Below are positions 3,357 through 30,300 of a stretch of 37,374 bases of DNA, piece after piece. Location: the NCBI GenBank assembly GCA_013140575.1, contig JABFSN010000057.1, positions 1 through 37,374 of the forward strand. Reading direction: 5' to 3'. Position 1 is the stretch's first letter. Every line of letters begins with the position of its first letter. Origin of the DNA: Phycisphaerales bacterium. GTDB lineage: Bacteria; Planctomycetota; Phycisphaerae; UBA1845. A program made the translations under genes and the position numbers. The notes under the pieces are model-generated. The model saw only the letters and a program-made list of their open reading frames with translations, did not search any database and was not told the DNA's origin.

Positions 3357-6300
3357 TCACGTCGCAGTCATCATGAAGTGTCCCTTGCGAACGCCCATCC
3401 GCCACAGTCCCTCCTTCATCGCGCAATACGACACCGGCAGGACGAACAGCGACAACAGTTCAATGGTCAGCCCCCCGATGGACGGCAACGCGATCGGAAT
3501 CATCACGTCGGCGCCGCGCCCGTCGCTGGTCAACACCGGCATCAGCGCCAGCACCGTCGTCGCCGACGTCATCAGGCACGGGCGGACGCGTTGCACGCCC
3601 GCGCGGACGATGTGGTCGCGAATGTCGGCGATGCCACCGACCGGCACCCGTTCAAACTCCTGCCCCAGATAGGTGGCCAGCACCACCCCGTCGTCCGTCG
3701 TCACGCTGAACAACGCGATAAAGCCGACCCACACCGCGGCCGACAGGTTATAGGTGTGGAAGTGCAGCAATTCGCGCACGTTCGTGCCGAATACGTCGAA
3801 ATTCAGGAACCACGGCTCCGCGATCAGCCACAGACCGATGAACCCGCCCGCCCACGCCACGGGAATGCCGCTGAAGACGATCAACGAAATGGGAACGGAT
3901 CGGAACTGGAAATACAGCAGCAGGAACAGCAGAAACAGACTGACCGGTAGTATAATCGACAGACGCTTCTGGAACCGCACCTGATTCTCATAATTCCCCG
4001 CGAACGTATAATGCACGCCCGGCGGCAATGTAAACTCGCCGGACGCGATCTTCGCCCGTAACAGGGCGTCGGCGCTCTCGACAACATTCACTTCTGCAAA
4101 ACCCGGCTCCTTGTCGAACAAAACGTACGACACCAAGAAATTGTTCTCGCTCTTGATGTCTTCCGGGCCCCGCGTATAGCGAATCTCGGCCAGTTGGCTC
4201 AACGGAATCTGTTCGCCGTTCATGCCCGGCACGGCGATGCGTTCCATCGACTCCACGGTGTCGCGCAGCTCGCGAAGGTAACGCACGCGGACGGGGTAGC
4301 GCTCCCGGCCCTCGACCGTCGTCGTGGCCCGGATGCCGCCCAGCGCGATTTCGATCACGTCCTGCACGTCGCGGATGTTGACCCCGTAACGGGCGATCCG
4401 TTCGCGATCGATCTCGATCTCCCAATACGGTTTGCCGATGACGCGGTCGGGAATGATCGCATCGGCCGCGACGCCGGGGACGGTTTTCAACAACTCCGCG
4501 ATCCGATAGCCGACCGCCTCTATCTCTTCCAGCGTCCGGCCGAACACCTTGACGCCCATCGGGGCCCGCATGCCCGACTGAAGCATGACCAGTCGCGCGG
4601 AAATGGGTTGCAACAGCGGCGCCCCGGTCACCCCCGGGAACTCGGCCGCCTTCTGCACCTCCCGCCAGATGTCCAGCGGCGACTTAATGTGCTCCCGCCA
4701 TTGCCGAATCGGATGCCCATCCGCGTCCAGCACCAGTTCCTGCGTGGCGGGGTCGCGCCGGTATTCGGTCTTGTAGGAAATGACCGTCTCCACCATGGCC
4801 AGCGGCGCGGGGTCGATGGCCGTCTCGGCACGCCCAATCTTTCCCACCACGCTTTCCACCTCGGGAATCGCGCGAATGGCCCGGTCCTGCGCCGCCAGCG
4901 CCCCGATGGCACTGCTGATGCCGGCATGTGGCATTAACGTGGGCATGTACAGGAACGACCCCTCGTCCAGCGGCGGCATGAACTCCCGTCCCAACCCCGG
5001 AAACTCATGCACCCCCGCCGTCCAAACCTTCTGATAGATGCCCGGTTCGGCACCGGCTTCCGGCCGGGGACGCGGCAGCCAGTTGAACGTACGGTCGAAT
5101 CCCAGCCAGACGGTGACTCCCAGCACTATCACGCCCGTCGGAATGCTCAAGAACAGCAACTTGTGCGCCAGGAACGCCCGCAGAATCGTCGGGTAGAAGT
5201 CGATGAACACCACCCGGACCAGCGCCCACCCCACGTTGATCCCCAGCACCACGATCATATTCCGCATCATGCCCGCGCCGGGGCCCAGCGGCATCCAGTG
5301 CCCGGTCAGCAACCACACGACCGCCGCCATCACCGCGACGCTTCCGCCGATCGTCAGCCAACGCATCGCCCCACGCGGGATCTTCGGCTCCAGAAGCGAA
5401 TAGACGCCGTACGCCGCGGCCGCCGTCCCCGCCCAGTGCCAGCCAATGGCAGCCGCCACGGCGCCGCCGAGGACGAACCCGCCCGGCACCACATATCGCC
5501 GTAGTCCCGCCAGCCGTCCGATCTGCGTGAACACGATCACGGATAATGTGGGTAACACGAGAATCGCCGCGAACAGGGAACCCAGGAGCGCAAACGTCTT
5601 CGTATACGCCAGCGGCCGGAACAACTTGCCTTCCGGCCCCTCCAGCGCGAAAACCGGCAGGAACGCGATCACCGTCATCAGGATGGCCGTAGTCACGGCC
5701 GATCCGATCTCCCGGGCGGCTTCGTACACGATCTCCAACATCGGCTTCCGCCCGCCGGCGGCGCGCTCAGTCTCCAGATGCCGCACGATGTTCTCGGTCA
5801 GGATGATGCCCATATCCACCATCGTGCCGATGGCGATGGCGATGCCGCCCAGGCTCATCAAATTCGAATCCACACCCGTCAGCTTCATCAAAATGAAACA
5901 CACCAGCACCGCCAACGGCATGGTCAGACTGATGATGACGCAGCTTCGCAAATGTCGCAGAAACATCAGCACCACGAACGTGGTAACCAGAATCTGCTCC
6001 CACAATGCGTCCTGCAGGGTTTCGAGCGTCTCGTGGATCAGAATCGTCCGGTCGTAAAACGGCACAATTTCGACCTGCGACGCAGTGCCGTCGGACAGCA
6101 CCTTGCGCGGCAGTCCCGGCCCGATCTCCGCGATCCGCGCCTTGACCCGTTCGATGACTTCCAGCGGATTCGCGCCGTAGCGGACCAGCACCACCCCGCC
6201 GACGGCCTCCACGCCGTCCTTGTCCAGCACCCCGCGGCGCAACGCCGGGCCGACGTGTACCTGGGCCACGTGTTTCACGTGAACCGGCACGTTGTCTTCC

Positions 6301-7115
6301 ACGCGCAAGACGATGTTTTCGAGGTCCTCGATCTTGGTGACGAACCCCTTGCCGCGGACCATGTACTCGACGCCGTTCCATTCGATGGTCTCGGCCCCCA
6401 CGTCGATGTTGGCCCGCTCGACGGCCATGAACACGTCCTGCAGCTTCACCTCGAACGCCCGCATGGCGTCGGGATCGACGTCGATCTGGTACTCGCGGAC
6501 GAATCCGCCCACGCTCGCCACCTGACTGACGCCGTCCACCGCCTGCAACGCGTAGCGCACGTACCAATCCTGAAGGCCGCGCAATTCGGTCGGATCGAAC
6601 CCACCGGCCGACCCCTCCAGCGTGTACCAGAACACCTGCCCCAGCGCCGTGGCATCCGGCCCCAGCGTCGCCGTCACGCCCGCCGGAAGCATCGTCTGCG
6701 CGATGTTCAATTTTTCGAGCAGCCGCGATCGGCACCAATAGAAATCGTGCCGCTCGTCAAAAATGACAAAAATCTGGGAAAACCCGAAATTCGAACTCGC
6801 CCGGATGGTCTTGAATCCCGGCGTTCCCTGCAGCAGCGTCGTCAGCGGATAGGTGACCTGGTCCTCCACGTCGCGCGGCGACCGCCCCGGCCACTCCGTG
6901 AAGATCACCTGCTGGTTCTCGCCGATGTCGGGAATGGCGTCCACGGGAATCGGATCGCGCGGGATCACCGCGTCGTCCGTGTCGAACGGCATCACCCGGT
7001 AGCCCCAGCCAATCACGAACGCGATCAGCAGAAAGACGACCAGTTGATTTTCAAGGCAGAACCGGATCACCCGATCGACAGGCCCCGCGGCTGATCTAGT
7101 GTCTCCCAATGTCAC
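3357..7115 (-). CDS. CusA/CzcA-family heavy-metal efflux RND transporter, inner-membrane pump
   Basis: A 1252-residue RND pump that uses the proton gradient to export metal ions through a periplasmic adaptor and outer-membrane duct. It starts with a transmembrane helix at about 25-44 and P-V-D-A-I-P-D. The fourth helix carries the HME-RND motif V-D-M-G-I-I-L-T-E-N (Asp434). Met724 (FLYMPT), Met774 (APLAMVET) and Met844 (RLVMLQSG) fall where E. coli CusA has its three-methionine Cu+/Ag+ site, aligned from memory; this favours copper or silver over zinc. The GTG at 7115 with GGAG upstream is preferred to a TTG at 7127. The protein is about 200 residues longer than CusA. Much of the excess is a segment at roughly 536-670, between the first and second halves, with several additional hydrophobic stretches. 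The adaptor and outer-membrane genes lie upstream on the same strand. Confidence 0.93.
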   Translation of the reverse strand: MTLGDTRSAAGPVDRVIRFCLENQLVVFLLIAFVIGWGYRVMPFDTDDAVIPRDPIPVDAIPDIGENQQVIFTEWPGRSPRDVEDQVTYPLTTLLQGTPGFKTIRASSNFGFSQIFVIFDERHDFYWCRSRLLEKLNIAQTMLPAGVTATLGPDATALGQVFWYTLEGSAGGFDPTELRGLQDWYVRYALQAVDGVSQVASVGGFVREYQIDVDPDAMRAFEVKLQDVFMAVERANIDVGAETIEWNGVEYMVRGKGFVTKIEDLENIVLRVEDNVPVHVKHVAQVHVGPALRRGVLDKDGVEAVGGVVLVRYGANPLEVIERVKARIAEIGPGLPRKVLSDGTASQVEIVPFYDRTILIHETLETLQDALWEQILVTTFVVLMFLRHLRSCVIISLTMPLAVLVCFILMKLTGVDSNLMSLGGIAIAIGTMVDMGIILTENIVRHLETERAAGGRKPMLEIVYEAAREIGSAVTTAILMTVIAFLPVFALEGPEGKLFRPLAYTKTFALLGSLFAAILVLPTLSVIVFTQIGRLAGLRRYVVPGGFVLGGAVAAAIGWHWAGTAAAAYGVYSLLEPKIPRGAMRWLTIGGSVAVMAAVVWLLTGHWMPLGPGAGMMRNMIVVLGINVGWALVRVVFIDFYPTILRAFLAHKLLFLSIPTGVIVLGVTVWLGFDRTFNWLPRPRPEAGAEPGIYQKVWTAGVHEFPGLGREFMPPLDEGSFLYMPTLMPHAGISSAIGALAAQDRAIRAIPEVESVVGKIGRAETAIDPAPLAMVETVISYKTEYRRDPATQELVLDADGHPIRQWREHIKSPLDIWREVQKAAEFPGVTGAPLLQPISARLVMLQSGMRAPMGVKVFGRTLEEIEAVGYRIAELLKTVPGVAADAIIPDRVIGKPYWEIEIDRERIARYGVNIRDVQDVIEIALGGIRATTTVEGRERYPVRVRYLRELRDTVESMERIAVPGMNGEQIPLSQLAEIRYTRGPEDIKSENNFLVSYVLFDKEPGFAEVNVVESADALLRAKIASGEFTLPPGVHYTFAGNYENQVRFQKRLSIILPVSLFLLFLLLYFQFRSVPISLIVFSGIPVAWAGGFIGLWLIAEPWFLNFDVFGTNVRELLHFHTYNLSAAVWVGFIALFSVTTDDGVVLATYLGQEFERVPVGGIADIRDHIVRAGVQRVRPCLMTSATTVLALMPVLTSDGRGADVMIPIALPSIGGLTIELLSLFVLPVSYCAMKEGLWRMGVRKGHFMMTAT

Positions 7116-7140
7116 CGCACGCTCCAACCCGCAAATCCCA

Positions 7141-7245: not shown

Positions 7246-9498
7246 TCATTTCGCTCCCTCCGCGATCGTCTCCTTCAGCGACCCGCAGCGGAACATGACC
7301 GCTCCGAAATACGGATTCTCCACGCCCTGTTTGTCCTGCATCCACCGTGCCCCGCGGTTGTCAAACGCCATCGGACAGTGGTAGACCAACACAGGCGAGG
7401 GCCCGCCGGGACCGATCCGCTCGGCCACCGTAATCAGCGAATTCGAGACGCCTTCGAACGCGGCCCGCGCTGCGTCGATCGCCGCCGCATCAACAATGGC
7501 GGCCGCGCTCTTGCGCAGGTTCGGCGCCACGGCCGTCCATTCCCCGCGGACCGTGTCCGGCAACGTCGCCGCGACGAACCCACCCACCAACCGATCAAGA
7601 TCAGCGGCCGCCGCCTTCGCGGGGTTCAGTTGATCGTGACTGAGCGCGCGTTGCACGTCGAAATACGCGTGAAAAATCGCCGTGATCGCCGCGGCCACCT
7701 CGGCCGGCAGCTCGACCGGCGGTCGCACTTGTGCGGGCGCGGCGGGGTCCGGCGGCAACGCGGTTGAAATGCGACCGCCCGGCGAACCTTCCGTTTCACG
7801 GTTCATCATGCTTGGTTTGGCCAGGATTTGGGCGGCGCTGTCCAGATACAGATTGCCCTGCGTGACCACCAGTTCGCCCTCCTTCAGTCCCTCCCGAACC
7901 AGATACGAATTCGCAGCCCGCGGCCCCAGCACCACCTCCCGCCCCTCGTATCGCCCGGCCCGCTCCCGATCCGCGACGTACACGACAGCCCGCGCCCCCG
8001 TGATCATCGGCGCCGTCGCGGGAATAACCAGCGGCGGTGTGGCATCCGTTGGCGACGCCGACGCATATCCCAGCGATTCCGCCGGCACCAGCGGCATCCC
8101 GCACTGCGTACACATGTCCGGGCCGTCGGCCACCACTTCGGGGTGCATCGGACAGATCCAACTGCCGGCCAACAGCGGATACAGAATCTTGCCGTCGGCC
8201 GTCAGCTGCGACCGCACCTCGGCCCGCACGAACATCGCCGGCTTCAGCCGCCCGTCGAGATTCGGCACGTTCACCCGCACCTTGGCCGTCCGCGTTCGCG
8301 GATTCAACACCGGGTCGATGAACGCGATCGTGCCGCGGAATGCGTCGCCCGCGTAGGCCTCGGTGGTGAACTCCACGTCCTGCCCGTAGCGCAGCCACGC
8401 CAGGTCCATTTCGTACGCATCGAGCTTGATCCAGACGTGGCTCAAGTCCGCGATGGTGTAGATTTCAGTTCCTTCCTCCACGTACGCCCCCTCGACGAGG
8501 CGCTTGTCCGTCACGATGCCGCCGATGGGCGCGTAAATCGTCAAATGGTCCGACGGCATCGCCCGTTGCTCGGTCTCCCGCACCTGCTCCTCGGTCAACC
8601 CCCACAACCGCAGCTTCTGCCGCGCCGCCTCCAACGTCTCCAGCCGCACCCGCTGCACATCCGCCGACGCGTCGTCGGCCGACTCCTGCAACGCCCGCGC
8701 GGACTGGATCAACTCCTGTTGCGCCGCCAGCAATTCCGGGCTGTACAACGAAACCAGATGATCGCCCTTGCGAACCGGCACGCCGGTATAGTCGACGTAC
8801 AGCCGGTCGAGCCGCCCCGGAACGCGCGACGTGATGGAGCGCTGACGCGTCTCGTCGTATTCGACCTTGCCCACCATGCGCACCTCGGCCGCCACGAATC
8901 GTCGCTCGACCGGCGACGTCTCCAGTCGCGCCAGCCGTATGGCCGTCTCCGACAACGTGATTTCGTTCAACGCATGTTCCGGCAACGCCTTGTCTTGGGC
9001 ACTGTCGCCGCCGTGCTCCTCGACCGCGACCATCTCCATCCCGCACACCGGGCACTTCCCCGCCCGGTCCATCGGCGGAACGCACATCATCGCGCACGCG
9101 TATTTGACCTTCTTCTGTGACGCGGCGCCCGACCCGTCCACCGACGCATGCGCGGCGTCCACCGACGAATCCGCTCCGCCGCTCGCCGGAACCAGTTCCA
9201 TTCCACAGATGGGACATTTCCCGGGCGTCGATAGCCGTATCTGCGGATGCATCGCACAGGTCCAGACAGCCGTCGCTTCGCCCGCACGCGTCCCATCACC
9301 GGTCACGACCCGCGTCGGACTCGTCGAACCGCCGAACCGCCCCCCCAACCAGAACGCCGCTCCCAACGCGACAACAGTCAGCGCCCCCTTGAATAGGCGA
9401 GAAACCTCCGCCTTAATCCCCGCCGACCGGCCACCCGCCGGACGACTCAAGGAATCGGTCGAGTTCGTTGGTTGTCCCGACGGGAGTTCAGTCTTCAT
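7246..9498 (-). CDS. CusB-like efflux RND periplasmic adaptor with three metal-binding modules
   Basis: A 750-residue membrane-fusion protein bridging the inner-membrane pump and the outer-membrane channel. After one N-terminal membrane helix (about 37-54) come two heavy-metal-binding modules: W-T-C-A-M-H-P with C-P-I-C-G-M (about 80-104) and C-A-M-M with C-P-V-C-G-M (about 133-157). The HlyD-type core follows, with a lipoyl/hairpin segment around 230-340 and a beta-barrel to about 440. A third module (W-I-C-P-M-H-P, C-T-Q-C-G-M, 447-471) sits inside the adaptor, before the membrane-proximal domain. The C terminus (about 600-745) resembles DUF3347, with Y-H-C-P-M-A-F, N-P-Y-F-G and M-F-R-C-G. 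The ATG at 9498 is chosen because the longer frame from 9576 has no sensible N terminus; its ribosome site is weak. The many Cys, Met and His residues fit Cu+/Ag+ handling. Confidence 0.9.
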   Translation of the reverse strand: MKTELPSGQPTNSTDSLSRPAGGRSAGIKAEVSRLFKGALTVVALGAAFWLGGRFGGSTSPTRVVTGDGTRAGEATAVWTCAMHPQIRLSTPGKCPICGMELVPASGGADSSVDAAHASVDGSGAASQKKVKYACAMMCVPPMDRAGKCPVCGMEMVAVEEHGGDSAQDKALPEHALNEITLSETAIRLARLETSPVERRFVAAEVRMVGKVEYDETRQRSITSRVPGRLDRLYVDYTGVPVRKGDHLVSLYSPELLAAQQELIQSARALQESADDASADVQRVRLETLEAARQKLRLWGLTEEQVRETEQRAMPSDHLTIYAPIGGIVTDKRLVEGAYVEEGTEIYTIADLSHVWIKLDAYEMDLAWLRYGQDVEFTTEAYAGDAFRGTIAFIDPVLNPRTRTAKVRVNVPNLDGRLKPAMFVRAEVRSQLTADGKILYPLLAGSWICPMHPEVVADGPDMCTQCGMPLVPAESLGYASASPTDATPPLVIPATAPMITGARAVVYVADRERAGRYEGREVVLGPRAANSYLVREGLKEGELVVTQGNLYLDSAAQILAKPSMMNRETEGSPGGRISTALPPDPAAPAQVRPPVELPAEVAAAITAIFHAYFDVQRALSHDQLNPAKAAAADLDRLVGGFVAATLPDTVRGEWTAVAPNLRKSAAAIVDAAAIDAARAAFEGVSNSLITVAERIGPGGPSPVLVYHCPMAFDNRGARWMQDKQGVENPYFGAVMFRCGSLKETIAEGAK

Positions 9499-9581
9499 GG
9501 TCTTTGCCACTTCGTTCTGCGTCACGCCGCGACCTATCCGAACCCGCAGCGCAAACGCCGGGCCAACAAACGTCACGACCC

Positions 9582-9705: not shown

Positions 9706-11223
9706 TTACTCCCCCGCAACACGCGACGCCGCGGGCACAATACCGTCTCCGCCCCCAACGACCGGCGTCAGCCGACCGCCCACTTCCCGCTCCAACTCCG
9801 CCCGCTGCACCAGCGCGTCGCGCACAAACGCCAGCGCATTCAACCGTGTCATGATCACGTCCTCCTGTACCTGCAGGAAAATCGTGACCTCCTCCCGCCC
9901 CGCCCGGTACGACTCCCGCACCACCTCCAGGTTCCGTTCGACTTCCGGCAGAATCGCCTCCCGGAAGAACTGCACCTGTTCGCACGACTGTTGATACATG
10001 ATCGCGGTCCCGCGTACGTTCGCCGCGATCTCCTGCCGCCGGGCTTCCAACTCCGCCCGCTGCCGCCGGTATTCATGCAACGATTTGGCCACCTGCGCCT
10101 GGTTCCAATCAAAAATGGGCAATTCAAAATCGATCATCGGGCCCACGGTCCATTCAATGTCCCGCGATTCCGGCTCGAACGCCGAAGCCCGCCCCAATTC
10201 CGGCACGTCACCGCGCAGCCCCTCCACCAGCGCATTCCCCGCCCGCCCGGCAATCGTCGGATTCTGCGACCGCGGCGCCGGCGACCGTTCAAACGTCAAC
10301 CCGACGGCCACCTCCGGCCAACCCTCGCGGCGCATCAATTCGATCCGCCGTTCCGCGCCCGCCAACGCCCATCCCGCGGCCTGCAAATCGAGACGCCCCG
10401 CTTCGGCCACCGACAGCATCGCTTCCTCCGACGGCGGCCGTTCAAAAATCTCGTCGATTTCATGGACCGGCGTCACGCTCCACGCGTCATTCGCCGTCGC
10501 GAAGCCCATCAGCATTAACAGTCGCCGCTTCAGCCCGCGGTACTCCGCCTCCATGCCCATCAGTTCGGATTGCAGCCGCAGAAACCGTATACGCGCCACA
10601 TTCACCTCGACCAGCGTGGCCTTGCCCGACGCCTGCTGCGTCTGAATCTGACGCCGCGCTTGCTCGACGATTTCCATGTTCGCCTGAATCAACTCGATCG
10701 CCCGTTGCCCATAGCGAATCCCCGTGTAGACCCGTTTCACCTCCCCCGCCGTTTCCACCGCCCGGTCCGCGACCCGCAGAATCGCCTCTTGCAACGCGGC
10801 CGCCGCCGCCTTCTCGCGCGACGGTATCAGCCACAATTCCTGCAACGCCTGAATCGGAAACCCCGCGCTCCGCAACATCGCCCGCCCCCCGCCGTCGGGC
10901 AGCATGGCCATCAGGTTGAATCGCGGATTCTGCAGCAGACCCGCCTGCACCAGGTCGGCGTCGGCCTGACCGATCATCTCCAGATCGGCCCGCAATGCGC
11001 GGTTGTTGCGCAACGCCAGCGTGACGGCCTCCTCCACGCCCAGAACGCTGCTCCCATCCCACGCCGGCGGCGCCTCGTCCCACGGCGCCAACCACGCCGG
11101 TCGCTCGCCGGTCTGCTTCTCGACCGCGTCCATGGCTTCCCCGACCCGCACCGTCGGTTGCAGCGTCGCGCATCCCCCGACCACGACGACCAACGCCCCT
11201 GGAATAAAACGCGATGAAATCAT
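9706..11223 (-). CDS. Outer-membrane efflux lipoprotein, TolC/CusC family
   Basis: A 505-residue protein of the outer-membrane factor family, the exit duct of the tripartite metal pump. From the ATG at 11223 it begins MISSRFIPGALVVVVGGCAT, a lipoprotein signal peptide with lipobox V-G-G-C, so the mature protein should start with a lipid-modified Cys about 18 residues in, as in CusC. The body has the two long alpha-helical repeats of the family, for example V-T-L-A-L-R-N-N-R-A-L at the start of the first and E-V-A-V-G-L-T-F-E-R at the start of the second. An upstream ATG at 11253 is possible, and neither start has a strong ribosome site. The gene order (outer-membrane factor, adaptor, pump) is typical of czc/cus operons. 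Confidence 0.9.
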   Translation of the reverse strand: MISSRFIPGALVVVVGGCATLQPTVRVGEAMDAVEKQTGERPAWLAPWDEAPPAWDGSSVLGVEEAVTLALRNNRALRADLEMIGQADADLVQAGLLQNPRFNLMAMLPDGGGRAMLRSAGFPIQALQELWLIPSREKAAAAALQEAILRVADRAVETAGEVKRVYTGIRYGQRAIELIQANMEIVEQARRQIQTQQASGKATLVEVNVARIRFLRLQSELMGMEAEYRGLKRRLLMLMGFATANDAWSVTPVHEIDEIFERPPSEEAMLSVAEAGRLDLQAAGWALAGAERRIELMRREGWPEVAVGLTFERSPAPRSQNPTIAGRAGNALVEGLRGDVPELGRASAFEPESRDIEWTVGPMIDFELPIFDWNQAQVAKSLHEYRRQRAELEARRQEIAANVRGTAIMYQQSCEQVQFFREAILPEVERNLEVVRESYRAGREEVTIFLQVQEDVIMTRLNALAFVRDALVQRAELEREVGGRLTPVVGGGDGIVPAASRVAGE

Positions 11224-11304
11224 CCGGAGTTTTGCCGCTTCTCGATCCGCCATTCTTCCCACTCGCGTTGGTCGCGCGTAATCGGCACGCCTCGAGTTTC
11301 CGTT

Positions 11305-11941: not shown

Positions 11942-12631
11942 CTAGTGATGGTCGTCGTGGTCGGGTTCCGGTTGCTCCCCGGAAGGCGCCTTCACCAGTT
12001 CCTTGGGATCAAGCGTATAGCCTTGCGCCGCGAGATTGGCCAGGTACTTGGACGGTTCGGCAATCAACTTCTTCTCACAAGGCTGGCAACAGAAGTATAT
12101 CTTCCCACCGCTGGCGGTGGCGGTGAACGACTTCGGATCGATGGTATCTCCCGAAATCGGGCATTTGGTCTGGTAGGTAAACGCATCGGCCAACGCCGAC
12201 GCGTATTTCGCCGGGTCGGCTTGGTATTGGCTCATGCACTCCGCCGACGAAAACAGCACAGTCACGCCACCCTGGTCCATCCCAATCTTCGGATCCACTG
12301 TCTTCCGACACACCGCGCACGAAACCTGCACCATCGACCGTCCCGCAAGCGCCTTGCGCTGCTCGCCCACCTTCGCCGCATACTTGGCTGTATCGGCCTT
12401 GTACTTGGGGACGCAGTTCTTACAACAGAAAAACACCGGTCCGTCCGGTGTCGAATGCCGCACGGCCAGGTTGATGGGCTCGTCGCCCGTCACCGGACAA
12501 TTGGGCAGCGCGGCCGCCGGCGCCGCGTGGTCGGGCTTGTGCCCGCCTTGTTCGTGCTGCGCCAAAAGGCGTCCGCACCCAACGACGACAAACGCGGAAA
12601 CGAGTATCCGACTCTTCGGTGATCGACTCAT
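11942..12631 (-). CDS. Secreted protein with three YHS-like metal-binding modules
   Basis: A 229-residue exported protein. The ATG at 12631 is fixed by AGGGAGGA (12638-12645) just upstream; the longer frame from 12796 is rejected. It opens with a signal peptide containing V-S-A-F-V-V-V-G-C-G, possibly a lipobox. Three successive modules follow, each of the form C-P/A-x-x-G or C-x-x-C near the start and an aromatic-Cys pair about 25-30 residues later: CPVTGDEP with FFCCKNC, CAVCRKTV with LFSSAEC, and CPISGDTI with YFCCQPC. This is the pattern of YHS/TRASH-like domains, which bind metals such as copper through Cys residues. The tail is His/Asp-rich (D-H-D-D-H-H). It is the first gene of the minus-strand efflux series and probably buffers or delivers metal in the periplasm. 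Confidence 0.8.
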   Translation of the reverse strand: MSRSPKSRILVSAFVVVGCGRLLAQHEQGGHKPDHAAPAAALPNCPVTGDEPINLAVRHSTPDGPVFFCCKNCVPKYKADTAKYAAKVGEQRKALAGRSMVQVSCAVCRKTVDPKIGMDQGGVTVLFSSAECMSQYQADPAKYASALADAFTYQTKCPISGDTIDPKSFTATASGGKIYFCCQPCEKKLIAEPSKYLANLAAQGYTLDPKELVKAPSGEQPEPDHDDHH

Positions 12632-12916
12632 CCTGGTCCTCCCTATGCGCGATCCTCCAACTTGGTCGGGTCCACGATGGACCGACGCGATAACCTCAAC
12701 CGGTTCTTCCAGTTCGATGCACGACGTCGCGACTTTCTTCGCCAAGCCCTTTCCCCACGCCCGATTTTCGCGGGATCCCTTACCGTTGACCGCCACGGGT
12801 CACCGTCGCCTGGCGTGGATTCGACTCCTTCGCTTAATCGTCAATCGTCTGTAGAATCTCGTGTGGGCCGCGGCACCCGTTCGGCCGATGCGGTATTTGG
12901 ACAAGGCTCGCCAACC
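12632..12916. other. Divergent intergenic region between the YHS-like gene and the ECF sigma gene
   Basis: About 285 bp that should hold the promoters of both the minus-strand efflux series and the plus-strand sigma/anti-sigma genes. The YHS gene's ribosome site is at its left edge. I see no convincing paired -35/-10 boxes or clear operator palindrome. In-frame GTG codons at 12815 and 12863 mean the sigma gene could begin inside it. Confidence 0.5.
12638..12645 (-). promoter_or_regulatory. Ribosome binding site deciding the YHS-protein start
   Basis: AGGGAGGA on the minus strand, six bases before the ATG at 12631. It supports the start that gives a proper signal peptide. Confidence 0.7.
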
Positions 12917-13552
12917 GTGGATGATCGCCGGCTAGTCGAACGCTGCCGCACGGGCGATCGCAACGCCCAGCGGGAGCTGTTTGAACAAACTTCCCCACGC
13001 GTTTACCGGCTCCTGTTCCGCATCACCGGAAATGCGGACGACGCCTCCGACTTGACCCAGGACACATTCGTCAAGGGACTGACCCGCATCGGCGAATTCG
13101 ACGGCCGCTCATCCCTCATCACATGGCTGCACCGCATCGCGGTCAACGAGGCCCTTCAGTTTCAACGCCGGGGCAAGGTTCTGCGGCGGAAGTTAAACGA
13201 CCTCGCGGCCGCTCAAACCGAGGGATACGAGGACGCCGCCCGCCTGACGCGATTCATGGATGTCGAGGAGGCGCTCCTCGCCCTTCCCACCGCCGAACGG
13301 ACCATGCTTCTGCTTCGTTATCAGGAGGGCTACGACTATCGCACCATCGGCGAATTGACCGGATTGCCGCAGGGCACCGTCGCGTCGCGGCTCAATCGCG
13401 CACGCGAACAACTACGCGACGCCCTGCAAAAAGCCTACGGCACAATGGAAGAAAAACCCGCTCCCACGCATCCAACAATCGAAGGGAAAGTTCGTACCGA
13501 TGGCGATGAAGTGGCGGCCTTGATCAACATTCCCGACACGGAACGACCATGA
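12917..13552 (+). CDS. ECF-type RNA polymerase sigma factor (RpoE-like)
   Basis: A group 4 sigma factor of about 211 residues. Region 2 is visible as L-V-E-R-C-R-T-G-D-R-N-A-Q, D-A-S-D-L-T-Q-D-T-F-V-K and W-L-H-R-I-A-V-N-E-A. Region 4 is L-L-L-R-Y-Q-E-G-Y-D-Y-R-T-I-G-E-L-T-G-L-P-Q-G-T-V-A-S-R-L-N-R-A-R, the -35-reading helix-turn-helix. The GTG at 12917 places region 2 about ten residues from the N terminus, as usual. The frame stays open to 12662 with arginine-rich, family-unlike sequence, and its ribosome site is weak, so the start is not certain. The stop overlaps the anti-sigma start (ATGA), a classic coupled pair. Divergent orientation to the metal-efflux genes suggests they are its targets. 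Confidence 0.9.
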   Translation: MDDRRLVERCRTGDRNAQRELFEQTSPRVYRLLFRITGNADDASDLTQDTFVKGLTRIGEFDGRSSLITWLHRIAVNEALQFQRRGKVLRRKLNDLAAAQTEGYEDAARLTRFMDVEEALLALPTAERTMLLLRYQEGYDYRTIGELTGLPQGTVASRLNRAREQLRDALQKAYGTMEEKPAPTHPTIEGKVRTDGDEVAALINIPDTERP

Positions 13553-14433
13553 GCGCGTGCAACGAAATCCTGAATCGGCTGGGCGAGTTCATCGACGGCG
13601 AGCTTCCGCCGACGGTTCGTGCGGAATTCCAGGATCACCTGAACCACTGCGCCGATTGCCGCAACGAGTTTCACCATCTGGTCGGTTTGACCGGTTCCCT
13701 GGCGGCAATCGATCAGCCTCCCGTTCCCGACGGACTTTGGAATACCATCGAACACCGCTTGGACGGTCTGCGCCAAGAACCGGGTATCGTGCGGTCCAGC
13801 CGACGTTGGACCCCCACCGCCCGCCTCGCCACGGCCGCCGCCATTATCCTCGCCGCAGGTCTGACCCTGGTGGGTGTTCTCTCCATCGACCGCTCCGCCC
13901 AGGCCGCCGACATCAATTTCGCCGTGCTCCTCGACGGACTGCCCTTCAGCGTCGACCACGCCTTCGCGAAATTCCTCTCCCACAACCACGGCCGACAAAC
14001 CACCGTCGCCGAGGCCCGTCGCATCGGCAAGAACTTGAGCTTCAACACCCCGCAACAGCTTCCCGGCGGCTTCGTCCTGCGCGAGGTCTACGCCCTGCGC
14101 GTGGGCGACAACCCCGGCGTGGCCGCCCGTTACGAGCGCAACGGCGAATTCCTCGCCGCGATTTTCCATAAACCGGTTCGGGCCGAAGAGTTCGGCTCGC
14201 ACAGAGACTACCCCTGCGTCGTCGGCAAGCACCGCGGGCACATGGTCGCCGTCGGTCAATGGAAACTCGTGCATTTCACCGACCCCACCACCTGCCACTG
14301 CCTCCTGAGCCGCCTCGACGAAACCACCGAGCTTCCCCCCATCATGGCCGCCGTCGCCCCCCGCCTTCGTGAATCCTCCACCGCGACCGACCGAATCGAA
14401 CCGCGCCCCGATCACCCGCCCGGGGGGAATTAA
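13549..14433 (+). CDS. Zinc-finger anti-sigma factor with large periplasmic domain
   Basis: A 294-residue membrane protein. The N terminus has the anti-sigma zinc-binding set Cys4, His30, Cys34 and Cys37 (H-x3-C-x2-C), which folds around the partner sigma factor in the cytoplasm. One membrane helix lies at about 92-113 (LATAAAIILAAGLTLVGVLS). The rest, about 180 residues, is periplasmic and contains several His and Cys residues (H-R-D-Y-P-C, G-K-H-R-G-H-M, T-T-C-H-C) that could sense metal or redox state. That sensing role is inference. The start overlaps the sigma stop by four bases. It most likely sequesters the upstream sigma factor until an envelope signal releases it. Confidence 0.87.
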   Translation: MSACNEILNRLGEFIDGELPPTVRAEFQDHLNHCADCRNEFHHLVGLTGSLAAIDQPPVPDGLWNTIEHRLDGLRQEPGIVRSSRRWTPTARLATAAAIILAAGLTLVGVLSIDRSAQAADINFAVLLDGLPFSVDHAFAKFLSHNHGRQTTVAEARRIGKNLSFNTPQQLPGGFVLREVYALRVGDNPGVAARYERNGEFLAAIFHKPVRAEEFGSHRDYPCVVGKHRGHMVAVGQWKLVHFTDPTTCHCLLSRLDETTELPPIMAAVAPRLRESSTATDRIEPRPDHPPGGN

Positions 14434-14559
14434 CATGCCCCCGCTCGCCACTGCCGACGATTCGGATCGATTGGTACGCCGTTTGCCGGTGATTCTTTCG
14501 TCAATCTCCCCCGAATGGGTCCGGGGTGAATGAACATACTGCTTTGAAGGAGCAACTCA

Positions 14560-15261
14560 ATGTCTCGACATGCACTACTCGCGATTTCGCTCGTTCCGTC
14601 GATTCTATTGGCCACAGGGTGTGGAAACTTCGGTTTGCCGATTCTGGGAGGCCAACTGGCCCCGCTGGTGGACGCCAAGGCTGAACAGGTGGCCGAGCAG
14701 ATCGGCGGCCCCGGCGGATTCGGCGGGATGCTGATGAACGGCTACGTCGGCCACGCCGGGCCGATGATCCGATTCAACGACGCCAACGACCTGGCCGATC
14801 CCGACGGCACCATGACCATCCTGCTTCAGAACGACGCCGAGCAGGGCTGCACCATGCACCTCGCGTTCCTAGCCGGCAACCTGGGGCTCGACGAGCTGTT
14901 CGAAGACGTCGAGGTGCCGGCCGGCGGCGAAACGACCATCGAAATCCCCTGCGCCGAACTGGTGGGCATGGGGTCGCTGGACACGCCGGGTGCCATCGGA
15001 TGTCACCTGTTCGACGACCAGGCCGTTGACAACGTCATGGCCGTGCCCGCGTTCCTCGGGCTGGACTACAACTGCGAAGACACGGTCCGGTTCACGCTGA
15101 CCCACGACGTCAACGACCTCGACGCCGACGGCGACATCGAGGAGCTCGTGGTGCAGAGCGACGCCATGCTCCAACACCTGTTGGACGGCGGGCCCATGGG
15201 CCACGGCCACGGCGGCATGGGCATGGGCATGGGCATGATGGGCTCGCACATGAGACCGTAG
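14560..15261 (+). CDS. Lipoprotein with Met/His-rich C-terminal tail
   Basis: A 233-residue protein with a lipoprotein signal (MSRHALLAISLVPSILLATGCG, shown in part: lipobox A-T-G-C) and a GAAGGAG ribosome site eight bases before the ATG. I do not recognise the central domain. It holds four Cys residues spread at roughly 85-175 that could form disulfides, and an acidic calcium-like stretch D-V-N-D-L-D-A-D-G-D-I-E-E. The tail is a striking G-P-M-G-H-G-H-G-G-M-G-M-G-M-G-M-M-G-S-H-M run, a typical Cu+/Cu2+-binding composition. It follows the anti-sigma gene by 126 nt on the same strand and is followed by the Met-rich microprotein. A periplasmic copper-binding lipoprotein controlled by the upstream sigma factor is the most likely reading. 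Confidence 0.72.
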   Translation: MSRHALLAISLVPSILLATGCGNFGLPILGGQLAPLVDAKAEQVAEQIGGPGGFGGMLMNGYVGHAGPMIRFNDANDLADPDGTMTILLQNDAEQGCTMHLAFLAGNLGLDELFEDVEVPAGGETTIEIPCAELVGMGSLDTPGAIGCHLFDDQAVDNVMAVPAFLGLDYNCEDTVRFTLTHDVNDLDADGDIEELVVQSDAMLQHLLDGGPMGHGHGGMGMGMGMMGSHMRP

Positions 15262-15292
15262 CGGCGACTGATGCCCGCGGCGAACTTTCGGT

Positions 15293-15317
15293 AGGGTGGG
15301 CACCGCCCTCCGTTTTC
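15293..15317 (+). terminator. Terminator-like hairpin after the Met/His lipoprotein
   Basis: GGGTGGGC-ACC-GCCCTCC followed by GTTTTCG, about 30 bases after the lipoprotein stop. The stem has one mismatch and the T tract is short, so it may be only partial. Confidence 0.4.
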
Positions 15318-15438
15318 GACCCGCGGCCCTGAAAAGCGAGCGTGACCAAGCCGGGAGCGAGAACGACGCGGCAGTAGGTAGCGAGCGGATGACATTCCGA
15401 CGGCGGCGACTTGCCGACCGGCGGAGACCGGCGATTTC

Positions 15439-15444
15439 AAGGAG
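15439..15444 (+). promoter_or_regulatory. Ribosome binding site of the Met-rich microprotein
   Basis: AAGGAG seven bases before the ATG at 15452. It supports translation of the 29-codon frame as a separate gene instead of a longer frame from 15296. Confidence 0.65.
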
Positions 15445-15451
15445 AAATGCA

Positions 15452-15541
15452 ATGGGGATGATGGGTGGTTGGATGATGGCCTTCTTTGCCATGTGGATGA
15501 TGTTCTTCGGCAACTTCTGGACGATTCCAGTCGCCGTATGA
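15452..15541 (+). CDS. Met-rich single-span membrane microprotein (29 aa)
   Basis: A 29-codon frame with a good ribosome site (AAGGAG, seven-base spacing). The product begins MGMMGGWMMAFFAMWMMFFG and continues N-F-W-T-I-P-V-A-V. Eight of 29 residues are Met and most of the rest are Phe, Trp, Gly and Ala, so it should form one membrane helix lined with methionine thioethers. It lies about 190 nt after the Met/His-rich lipoprotein in a copper-type cluster. Met pairs in membranes are typical Cu+ ligands. I know no named family for it. A chance frame is possible, but the ribosome site, hydrophobicity and composition argue for a real small gene. Confidence 0.6.
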   Translation: MGMMGGWMMAFFAMWMMFFGNFWTIPVAV

Positions 15542-15730
15542 ATCATTAGTCCCGAAAGTCCCGATTCTGCCGCGCGTCCATCCGAATGGACTCCGCAGGG
15601 TGAACGCCGGCGAGCCGCGATTGCGAACGCATCGGGATACGGCGCGGGTTAGAAAACGGTGCACGATGGTGTCAGAGCGGATTCCCCGACCGGGGTTTCA
15701 TGACCCCCGGCACAAGACCGCGGGCATTAA

Positions 15731-15749
15731 ACCACGCCGGCGGCGTGGT
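15731..15749. terminator. Perfect hairpin between convergent genes
   Basis: ACCACGCC-GGC-GGCGTGGT, an eight-base perfect stem touching the stop of the minus-strand coiled-coil gene. On the minus strand it is followed by TTTAAT, so it probably ends that transcript. A second, bulged hairpin (CCGGGGT/ACCCCCGG) lies at 15690-15710 and could serve the plus strand. Confidence 0.5.
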
Positions 15750-16654
15750 CATTTCGGTGGTTGATTGTTCGAGGCTTTGATTCGCCGGTCGAGCGTCTCA
15801 AGTTTCTCTTCGAGAACGTTGAGGGCTTCGCGGACGAGGTTTTCCACGGGGACGGTGGCCGAGTAGTCAGCGGAGGCGGCCCAGCCCTGCGTGGTCTGGT
15901 CGGACTGGGCGGCGAGCTCGACGCCGAGGCGGGCGATTTGATCGTCGATGTACGAGTCGTCGCGGGCCTCTATTTCCAACATGCGGCGGACGAGTTGATC
16001 GAGACCCTCCTGGACGCGGGCGACGTGCGGCCGCGTGGTCTGCGATTGAACGGCGTTGAACGCCGACGCGAGGATCGCGGGCCCGTGGATCGTTTTCCGG
16101 CGCACCCGATTGAACGACTTGCGGGCCGAGTCGATGCGTTGCAACGCGGTCTTGGCGGCGTCTACGGCGGCCTGCACGCGGCGGCGATTGTCCTGGGGCG
16201 ATGCGTCCGACGCCGGCGCGGTTGGCGACGCCAATGCCTGCGCGGTGGAGGCGGCCAACGGCGCGTCGGGTGGCGCCGTCGTAAGTTCAGGCGGCGGTGC
16301 GACGCTTGCGAAGGCCTTCAGCCGGTGTTCGATTTCGTCAAGCTGTTTCGAGACGCCGTCGAAGGTCCTGGCAATGTCGCGGTGTTCTTTTTCATGGTCC
16401 CATCGTTGCGATTTCAATTGCTCGATGCGTTCGTGCTTGGACCCGGTCAGTGATTGCAAAATGCCGGCCAGCGAGGTTCCTTCCAGACGGCGCAACTGCC
16501 GGTCGATGTCGTCCATCGCGTTTTCGAGAAACTGGGCGCGCTCCGCGTCGGTCTTGACCGACTCCTGCAATTGCGTTTGCCGGGTCAACAGGGCAGCGCG
16601 GTCATCGCGCGGCGCGGCGGGTTGCGAAAGACCCCGGTACGACGGCTGAATCAT
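15749..16654 (-). CDS. Coiled-coil protein of unknown function
   Basis: A 301-residue protein from the ATG at 16654, chosen for the ACGGAG site seven bases upstream; the frame open to 16873 gives an arginine-rich, non-protein-like extension. Two heptad-rich helical regions (about 25-130 and 160-300) are separated by a Pro/Ala/Thr linker (about 133-160). There is no signal peptide or membrane segment, and high Glu, Lys, Arg and Gln content suggests a soluble elongated dimer. No catalytic motif is visible and I do not recognise the family. It stands alone, convergent with the microprotein gene and divergent from the FAH-family gene. Confidence 0.7.
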   Translation of the reverse strand: MIQPSYRGLSQPAAPRDDRAALLTRQTQLQESVKTDAERAQFLENAMDDIDRQLRRLEGTSLAGILQSLTGSKHERIEQLKSQRWDHEKEHRDIARTFDGVSKQLDEIEHRLKAFASVAPPPELTTAPPDAPLAASTAQALASPTAPASDASPQDNRRRVQAAVDAAKTALQRIDSARKSFNRVRRKTIHGPAILASAFNAVQSQTTRPHVARVQEGLDQLVRRMLEIEARDDSYIDDQIARLGVELAAQSDQTTQGWAASADYSATVPVENLVREALNVLEEKLETLDRRIKASNNQPPK

Positions 16655-27320: not shown

Positions 27321-27370
27321 GTTGGGCGCAGGTGAACAGGCAAACGCGCACGAGAGGTGCTTGACGTTTC

Positions 27371-27377
27371 GGGAGGT
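27371..27377 (+). promoter_or_regulatory. Ribosome binding site deciding the start of the 2959-aa protein
   Basis: GGGAGGT six bases before the ATG at 27384. It favours this ATG over the GTG at 27357 and gives a clean signal peptide. Confidence 0.75.
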
Positions 27378-27383
27378 CGATTC

Positions 27384-30300
27384 ATGCCATGGAGCCATCG
27401 CAACCGGAGTCGATTGTTGTGCGCGGTTTGCCTGCTGCTTGCGTCCGGCACTGAAGCGCAGGTCGATCTGTCGGAAGCACGGGAATTGGCCAATGACATT
27501 CTCGCCGCGCGGGCGATCTCCGGACCGACCACGCAGGGCGGCGGCGGCGTGCTGTACGTGGACGGGGCATCGACCGGGCCGGTGCATGACGGGTCGACCT
27601 GGTGCAAGGCGTTTGTATATTTGCAGGACGCATTGACGACGGCCGCGGGATCGGGCGGCGCGATTTCCGAAATCCGCGTGGCGGCGGGAACCCACAAACC
27701 CGACCGCGGCGCGGGACAGACGCCGCTGAACAAGAACGCCACGTTCAATCTCTTCTCCGGCATCTCACTGAAGGGCGGGTATGCGGGGTGTTCGGCCGCC
27801 AATCCCGACGCCCGAGATTTTCAAACGTACCAGACGATTCTGTCCGGCGACCTGGCGGGCAATGACGGACCGGGATTCGTCAACTACGGCGACAACAGTT
27901 GTCACATTGTCAGGGCTTGGACCGTCCTGAACGTGGCACTGGAGGGATTCACAATTCAGAGCGCCGAAGGCGCACTCTGCGGCGCGGGCGGCGGGATTCT
28001 GAACGCGGGCAGTGGCCTCATCGTCCGGTCGTGCGTCTTCCGCGACAACCGGGCGCAGGCCGGGAGCGCCGTCTACAATCTGGCGACGAACGCCGGCTTC
28101 GTCGACTGCCAATTCGTTCGGAATCGCTCGACTGCCGGCAACGGTGGCGCGATCATCTCGCAGTTTAGTGCTGCGCGGTATACCAATTGCCTGTTTCTCG
28201 ACAACGAGACACTCTCGGGTCGGGGCGGCGCCATCTACAGCGAGATGGCACTCCTATCTCTTGGCCCCCCTAAACTCGTAAACTGTCGATTCATCGGCAA
28301 CTCCGCCCCGTTGAGCGGCGGTGCCATCCACAATCGATCCGCCGCGCCGATTTTGGTGAATTGCCTGTTCAGCGGAAACGTCACCCCCGGCGACGGCGGC
28401 GCCCTGGCAAATGTGGAGGGCGGCGATCCCGCGGACGCCGTGTTGGTCAACTGCACGTTTGGCGGAAATTCAGCCGGCGGCAGTGGCGGCGGTATTTTCA
28501 ACGACGGCGCGGTCTTGTCGATCACGCACGGTATATTCTGGAACAACACCGACGCCGGCGGTTCGGACGAGTCGGCGCAATTGCACAACGTCAGTGACCT
28601 GCCAATCGTAGACTACACCTGCGTGCAGGGATGGGTGGGCACGCTCGGTGGAATCGACAATTTCGGCGCCAACCCGCTGTTTGCGAACCCGGCCGGTGTC
28701 GACGCAGTCGTCGGCACGGACGACGACGACCTGCGGCTCCTCTCCAATTCGCCGTGCATCGACGTCGGCAACAACGCCCGCATCGGTCTCGACGTGACCG
28801 ACCTGGACGCGGACGGCAACATCGCCGAAGGCGTGCCGTTCGACCCGGAGGGTTCACCGCGCATCCTTGACGGCGACGGCAACGAGGAACTGGCCGGCAT
28901 TCCCGCGACCATCGACCTGGGCGCTTACGAAGCCGGCGAGACGCCGGGACCGAACCCGCCGCGCATCACGGCCATCCATCCCGCGGCAGGTCAATGGATC
29001 ACGGACAACGTCGGGCTGCCGACGTTTGCGATGACGTTCGACCACAACGTCTCCGTCCCCGCGGGGGCCGTCTCCGCGCGCGGCGCCGTCGCCGGTCCGA
29101 TCACCGGTTTCACCACGAGTTACGACGCCAACACCCGCACGCTCGCAGTGGCGTTCGACTCCGCGATCCGCGACGATCGCGTGACCATCGTGCTCGACTT
29201 CACGACCGCCGATTCACTCGGTCGCGCGCTCGACGGCGAAATCGACAACCCCTCGGCCGCGGGTCTTCCTTCCGGCGACGGCGTGGCCGGTGGTCAGGCG
29301 GTGTTTCGCGTCAATGTTCTGCAAGGGGACGCCAATCACGACGGCATTGTGGACGTTTTTGACCGCGCCATCATTCGCGTCGCATTGGGAAGCGCAATTG
29401 GCGGCGCCACGTACAATGCGCTGGCCGACTTAAACAGCGACGGCAATGTCAACGCGCTGGACGTGGGCATCTATTCGCTGGCCGAAGGCAACACGTTGCC
29501 GCCGGGCGACGGAACGACGCCCTATGTCACCTCCATCACGCCGGATCCGTTGTCCGGTCTGTCCGCCGATCTCGACGCGGTGACCGTTCATTTCAGCGAA
29601 CCGCTCGTCGTCGGAATCGGTCAACGCACGTGCTATCTAATCGACGCAAGCGGCGCCATTCACGTTCCCGCGACCGTGGATCTCGCCGCCGATGGACGGA
29701 GCGCCACGTATCGATACACGCCAGCGCTGCCGTTCTGCGGCGACTATTCCGTGCGCGTCAGCAACGCACCGGGCGACGCCACGGACACGCTGCTGTTCAC
29801 GCCGTCCGCGGCCGCGGTTCTATCGGGCTTGTCGGCCCCGCCCCCCGCGCCCGTGCTGGATGATCCGGCGCCCCTGCTCACCGACGACACCACCATCACC
29901 GTCAATGGGTCGGCACAGTCCGGTGCCACCATCGCCGTCAGCGGGCACGGCGGCGTGTGCGGCGTCATCGGTCAAACCGCCTGCGAAATCTCCGCCGGAC
30001 CAGACGGCACGTTTTCCATCGACCTGACCTTGGCCGTGAATCATGTCAACCACATATTCTTCTCGGCGATTTCCGCCTGTAACGGCCTCGCCGGCGCCCC
30101 CGTGACGAAAATCATCACCCACGACACGGAAGACCCATTCGTCTACATCGACTTCCCGCTCAACGGAGACGAAATCACCACCGCCACCACCGACGTCGCC
30201 GGCCGCGTGGCCGACTCCATGTCCGGCTCCATGGGTCTGGCGGTCTCCGTGAACGGAATCTCCGCGGCCGTTGACGATGGTATCGGCACCAACGGCACGT

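Follow-up and report, generated by a model that had tools for sequence, protein, structure and literature searches.

Whether a reading frame of only 90 bp is a gene, and what so small a product would do beside metal-efflux genes, are the questions raised by a locus in a 37,374-nt stretch of DNA from a Phycisphaerales bacterium (GenBank assembly GCA_013140575.1, contig JABFSN010000057.1), hereafter called the window. The frame translates as MGMMGGWMMAFFAMWMMFFGNFWTIPVAV with the stop codon TGA, and its composition includes 8 Met, 3 Trp, 5 Phe and 3 Ala and no charged residue. A preliminary description of the locus had given the Met and Trp counts exactly, while its seven Phe/Ala-type residues are eight by our count; the AAGGAG motif that it considered well spaced is indeed found at a suitable position (Table 1).

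Table 1. Features of the window around the microprotein gene
Feature	Position	Strand	Description
CusA/CzcA-family RND pump	3357..7127	-	TIGR00914 above cut-off; Cus three-methionine site kept
CusB-like adaptor, three HMBD stretches	7246..9576	-	PF16576, PF19335; TIGR01730 above cut-off
CusC-like outer membrane factor	9706..11262	-	PF02321
YHS-domain protein	11942..12796	-	PF04945 above cut-off; divergent from ECF gene
ECF sigma factor	12662..13552, start codon uncertain	+	PF04542, PF08281, TIGR02937
Anti-sigma factor	13549..14433	+	zf-HC2 (PF13490), hydrophobic helix at about residues 91-111, RseB/MucB-like C-terminal domain
233-aa lipoprotein	14560..15261	+	Lipobox ATGC; predicted beta-sandwich; low-confidence His/Met-rich tail
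Shine-Dalgarno AAGGAG	15439..15444	+	7 nt ahead of microprotein ATG
Microprotein gene	15452..15541, TGA included	+	29 aa, Met-rich; predicted membrane location

Copies of the microprotein in related genomes

Searching the 114 genomes of the order with the 29-residue protein alone revealed three further loci in two genomes of the window's family, namely two in G090 (1.1e-6 and 8.8e-6) and one in G058 (2.3e-4), with G068 as a weak fourth match (E 0.18). A profile (A1) of these five sequences, the window included, recovered the same five loci from 397 genomes of the class and gave no other match below 0.005. An ORF scan within 1.5 kb around homologs of both upstream neighbours, covering 60 loci (the best 30 of each neighbour search), yielded eight more candidates, all of which are SD-preceded and hydrophobic and carry FGG or LGG. 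The resulting 13-sequence profile (A2), which contains the copies that it retrieves, found 13 loci in 10 of the 114 genomes of the order (E 1.8e-10 to 1.2e-5), the next best match being at 0.02.

In a leave-group-out HMM test on 670,965 bases of loci (21,143 frames), G068a (2.2e-7), G074 (9.3e-6), G068b (8.7e-5), G063 (4.1e-4) and G095a (4.6e-5) each ranked first, G095b second and G096 fifth. When the window's own group was left out, G090b ranked first, the window 7, G058 9 and G090a 17. The copies of G067 (rank 18) and G091 (rank 12) were not recovered by sequence alone in this test and are counted as members for their position, SD and FGG core. A shortened fourteenth copy, MMSGWGWMMGFIAMLTT (L203:14859-14912), is present in G091 as well; it has an SD of its own, lies about 5 kb downstream of the first copy behind an HD-domain-type gene and was missed by the profile.

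No genome beyond the window's family had a match at E 1e-3 in overlapping class and phylum samples of 397, 392 and 347 genomes. A codon scan for the core WMMFFG (ATNTGGATGATGTTYTTYGG), which detects only relatives carrying that core, found 32 stretches among the contigs of 84,980 species. Four of these are known members; the other 28, judged by eye, contain no family sequence around the core. A shorter core motif retrieved 27 viral stretches and no members. Weak profile matches in L023, L025, L030, L032, L048, L177 and L180 lack the family pattern, and the remaining weak matches were discarded for their E-values of 0.002 or weaker and for their frame lengths. No match to the microprotein was found in Pfam or NCBIfam, nor did A2 match any PDB chain at E <= 10. 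Likewise, neither a Met-rich small membrane or copper-efflux microprotein family nor any small membrane accessory to a heavy-metal RND system was found in the titles and abstract openings of the open-access papers searched. Set against Pfam, NCBIfam, PDB sequences and this literature, the microprotein is a new family. The small gene suspected in the preliminary description is conserved and absent from Pfam and NCBIfam, but a full copy occurs in only 10 of the 114 genomes of the order.

Evidence for coding

The frame in the window remains open upstream to a GTG at 15296 (81 codons), and its nearest in-frame stop lies 61 codons up. In the other 12 copies the nearest upstream in-frame stop is 3 to 56 codons away (4 in G090a and 3 in G068b, the latter counted from the codon after its GTG), which supports the SD-preceded start.

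Purifying selection on the frame is seen among the four closest copies (pN/pS 0.00-0.14). Compared over the first 20 codons, the window differs from G090a, G058 and G090b with pN/pS of 0.11, 0.12 and 0.14, and those three differ from each other with 0.00-0.09 (G090a and G090b belong to the same genome). The synonymous excess reaches binomial P values of 0.006, 0.005 and 0.03 in the window's three pairs (non-independent comparisons) and of 0.005-0.03 over the four closest-copy pairs tested. Pairs with G068a give 0.42-0.58, and the pooled value of the window cluster is 0.28. In the second cluster, G095/G096, pooled pN/pS is 0.38 (P 0.09 and 0.11 for two pairs) and one antisense frame is lower (0.29); these data are only compatible with coding. 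The two signs that the preliminary description had named for checking the gene, synonymous-biased change and an undisrupted frame in relatives, are both present: the bias among the closest copies, and the intact frame in all 13 full copies, with the shortened copy of G091 as the fourteenth.

It is very improbable that the frame is no gene at all, being either a chance ORF or a conserved DNA or RNA element. Many Met and Trp codons leave only about 7.5 synonymous sites of 60 and make the selection test small, but the closest copies are biased towards synonymous change, while the other frames of the window cluster give 0.79 to 6 where scorable. Moreover, the stop codons differ among copies (TGA, TAA and TAG are all used), all 13 starts are preceded by an SD-like GGAG, and ORFs of comparable class (SD, 20-40 aa, at least five Met and at most one charged residue) number one in the window and none in 100 windows simulated with a first-order Markov model. 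Judged from these sequence comparisons, the ORF is almost certainly a real gene, conserved in some uncultured Planctomycetota. The case shows how far codon change and context can argue for a tiny gene in uncultured lineages.

A probable metal-stress module around the microprotein

All 13 full copies sit behind same-strand genes of one envelope metal-stress module, although eight of them were first recognised near lipoprotein or anti-sigma genes, so that their neighbourhood was preset by the search. The module genes are an ECF sigma factor, an anti-sigma factor, a lipoprotein with a His/Met-rich tail and a CxxC lipoprotein, or else CusCBA together with HMBD and YHS-like proteins. The most common upstream neighbour is the His/Met-tailed lipoprotein (10 of 13 loci), which directly precedes the microprotein in seven loci (gaps of 29-190 nt) and is separated from it by a CxxC lipoprotein in three; the gap of 29 nt in both loci of G095 and in G096 is operon-like. 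In G068a, the microprotein follows an anti-sigma factor and a CxxC lipoprotein, and the full copy of G091 lies directly behind an anti-sigma gene. The copy in G090a follows CusCBA, an HMBD lipoprotein (PF19335, 1.3e-13) and a YHS-like protein whose PF04945 match (1.8e-4) is below the cut-off. The window and the stretches of G063, G067 and G095 contain ECF and anti-sigma genes, again on the same strand. RND-system genes were found within the examined stretch at 8 of 13 loci; the five stretches without one measure 19.7, 18.9, 14.2, 10.3 and 5.4 kb, and three of them come from contigs only 5-16 kb long. The link to a heavy-metal efflux locus that had been proposed at the outset agrees with both counts, and the microprotein very probably belongs to a metal-stress or efflux module.

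Homologs of the lipoprotein are present in 25 of the 114 genomes of the order, nine of which are among the 10 with the microprotein; the other 16 gave no microprotein. Its profile found nothing in the other 386 genomes of the phylum at E <= 1e-6. A pattern scan of the contig collection with the 233-aa lipoprotein had returned 220 matches and no relatives; the relatives then came from whole-genome searches. The lipobox G-C is invariant in 16 sequences (alignment A3), and most of 19 aligned lipoproteins end in a tail like GGPxGHxHG..MMGxHM, which has low confidence in the structural model. The model as a whole, built on a thin alignment of 16 sequences, has a mean pLDDT of 80.5 and no informative match in the PDB (best E 3.9e-4, TMq 0.30). 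G095 has a frame of 433 aa (L199:3468-4766) in which two copies of the lipoprotein are joined head to tail. The CxxC lipoproteins, of 62-73 aa with a His-rich end (L200:9625, L196:9571, L202:10350 on the minus strand, L208:10358, L018:8467 and L019:17123 on the minus strand), stand behind the 233-aa lipoprotein or the anti-sigma factor and, in L018, just ahead of the lipoprotein. The two tested had no Pfam match, and the window itself gave no such lipoprotein in a pattern scan.

No sigma-70-like promoter was detected in 14430-15760 and no terminator-like site between the lipoprotein and microprotein genes of the window; inspection by eye for ECF promoters gave no result.

Candidate metal-binding features of the pump and the anti-sigma factor

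In the window's pump, M728, M778 and M848 align with the Met site of E. coli CusA in its PDB sequence, the substrate site formed by residues 573, 623 and 672. The same triad is present in the pumps beside the copies of the window, G090 (C103), G058, G068 (C92) and G074 and absent from the pump adjoining the copy in G063. The pump of G067 is cut short by the end of its stretch, and the stretch of G091 contains only adaptor and outer-membrane genes. All 10 genomes with the microprotein, and likewise all 10 hand-picked genomes without it, have pumps of this class; genome-level presence of a pump is therefore uninformative about a pump-related role.

The anti-sigma factor, with homologs in 56 of the 114 genomes of the order, carries nine His/Cys residues (H207, H218, C223, H228, H231, H242, C249, H250 and C251), each of them conserved in 31-33 of the 33 rows aligned (the window counting twice); six of the nine remain in a distant homolog, L214. 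In a model based on an alignment of only eight sequences, the C-terminal domain is the part predicted with confidence, and eight of the nine best PDB matches are RseB or MucB, at weak levels (best E 5.5e-3, TM of about 0.26 of the whole query). As in RseA/RseB envelope sensing, the protein combines a zinc finger and a hydrophobic helix with a domain resembling RseB/MucB; unlike in that system, the sensor domain is fused into the same protein and bears nine conserved His/Cys, and the fold match is weak. The window's protein is accordingly a candidate metal-sensing anti-sigma factor. A metal-responsive envelope system is likely because the Cus Met site, the His/Cys-bearing anti-sigma factor and the metal-tailed lipoprotein occur together, and the Cus site suggests that the metal is copper or silver. 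With its fused RseB-like, His/Cys-rich anti-sigma factor, the locus is a candidate metal-sensing operon.

Anatomy and proposed role of the microprotein

Members of the family are 26-32 residues long. The best-kept columns are F19 (12/13), G20 (13/13) and G21 (11/13, with N in the window), followed by Ala or Gly at column 10 (12/13), G6 (11/13), M9 (10/13), Pro at 25 or 26 (10/13), M16 (9/13), W15 (8/13) and F22 (8/13). By hydropathy, most members fit a single membrane helix, with the window copy as a marginal case: the Kyte-Doolittle maximum over 19 residues is 1.38-2.29 among the 13 members (1.48 in the window), and an approximate Hessa-type sum is negative in 12 of 13 (+0.32 in the window). 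The location in the membrane and the orientation are predictions from sequence.

On balance, an accessory membrane subunit of the metal module appears to be the somewhat better-than-even reading of these features. Loading of the His/Cys sites of the anti-sigma factor with Cu(I)/Ag(I), or with a soft metal of another kind, would free the ECF sigma factor, upon which the string of ECF, anti-sigma and lipoprotein genes would be transcribed with the microprotein at its end. The microprotein would insert into the inner membrane as one helix ending in a flexible F-G-G tail, usually then Pro. It would pack against some larger membrane protein of the module, for which the RND pump is the likeliest choice, much as AcrZ packs against AcrB, while a Met face (columns 9, 12 and 16) may lend the Met-rich members an affinity for soft metals. 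A pump-binding regulator and a Cu+ ligand were the two candidate roles of the preliminary description. The pump is the obvious partner to propose, yet it is absent from five stretches, and the proposal that it is the specific partner is tentative and less probable than not. Should the family prove to be an RND subunit, metal pumps would be tuned by small proteins just as drug pumps are. Rather unlikely is the strongest version, by which the family of about 29 residues would be a dedicated subunit of an ECF-controlled Cu/Ag module for envelope defence in Planctomycetota, a metal counterpart of AcrZ whose Met face would both dock and bind Cu(I)/Ag(I).

It is similarly doubtful that the microprotein is essentially a membrane ligand of Cu(I)/Ag(I), its Met helix binding soft metal at the inner membrane and either buffering it or passing it on, whether to the pump or the His/Met-tailed lipoproteins. 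Met makes up 8 of 29 residues in the window and reaches 10-11 in G090a (counted over 31 residues from the first ATG; the alignment uses 29), G090b, G058 and G091, the frequent Met columns 9 and 16 are two helix turns apart, and neighbouring proteins are rich in metal ligands. On the other hand, Met falls to 4-5 in G063, G095 and G096, and conserved Met ligand positions were not found, the start Met being the only invariant one and the best columns reaching 10/13 and 9/13. A ligand role would thus suit the copies richest in Met but not those with four. Since Met varies from 4 to 11 per copy while F-G-G is best kept, a role as structural membrane partner is preferred to that of a pure Cu(I) ligand; the conserved part is the helix-FGG core, as would suit packing against a partner.

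A signalling peptide that acts in the membrane on the anti-sigma factor or its RseB-like domain and tunes release of the ECF sigma factor is improbable. It would suit the position directly behind the anti-sigma gene in G091, the single small lipoprotein between them in G068a, and the four stretches that share same-strand ECF and anti-sigma genes, but G090, with two copies, has no such anti-sigma factor at E <= 1e-10, and no microprotein turned up in 47 of the 56 genomes that have the anti-sigma factor. A hydrophobic type I toxin-like or membrane-stress peptide, which is generally of similar size and hydrophobicity, is a very remote reading in view of the uncharged window copy and the same-strand position behind metal genes in all 13 full copies.

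Comparison with known small proteins

The accessory subunit proposed here resembles E. coli AcrZ (49 aa, binding AcrB) in being a small membrane protein with a putative link to an RND pump. Differences include the length of only 26-32 residues, the Met richness and the setting in a metal RND locus with an ECF sigma factor, and pump binding is putative. Homology to AcrZ, which is presumably among the PDB chains searched, was not found with A2 at E <= 10 or through Pfam and NCBIfam. In AcrZ a bend is needed for AcrB binding, and Gly can substitute for Pro there, according to PMC7267776; the microprotein has G-G after the helix and, in 10 of 13 copies, Pro further on.

CusF is the soluble, folded, periplasmic metal chaperone of the Cus system. 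Like it, the microprotein would function beside a Cus-type pump and share soft-metal chemistry, its role being putative, whereas its structure is one hydrophobic stretch with no Pfam or NCBIfam match. CusF is described as nonessential in PMC8277102, with Cu+ going from CusF via CusB to CusA. The microprotein also shares its size class and predicted single helix with one further group, although no family or PDB match links it to these proteins: MgtS, CydX and similar single-helix membrane proteins of 30-40 aa.

Other frames near the locus and its relatives

A 2968-aa ORF with long CC-rich repeats such as CCDGECCGGPCC occupies 27357-36263 of the window. A small protein of unassigned kind and a methyltransferase-like protein are encoded as a recurrent pair near the microprotein and Cus genes in three genomes (L016:9928-11090, L018:10866-11980 and L200:7491-8730; the Pfam scan covered the L200 pair only). 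In G109, which belongs to another family of the order, an SD-preceded 47-aa ORF with 16 Met (L145:3333-3476), starting with MFGDMFMGMMGGMMA, lies behind an anti-sigma gene and a lipoprotein-like gene and is possibly a distant or parallel Met-rich microprotein.
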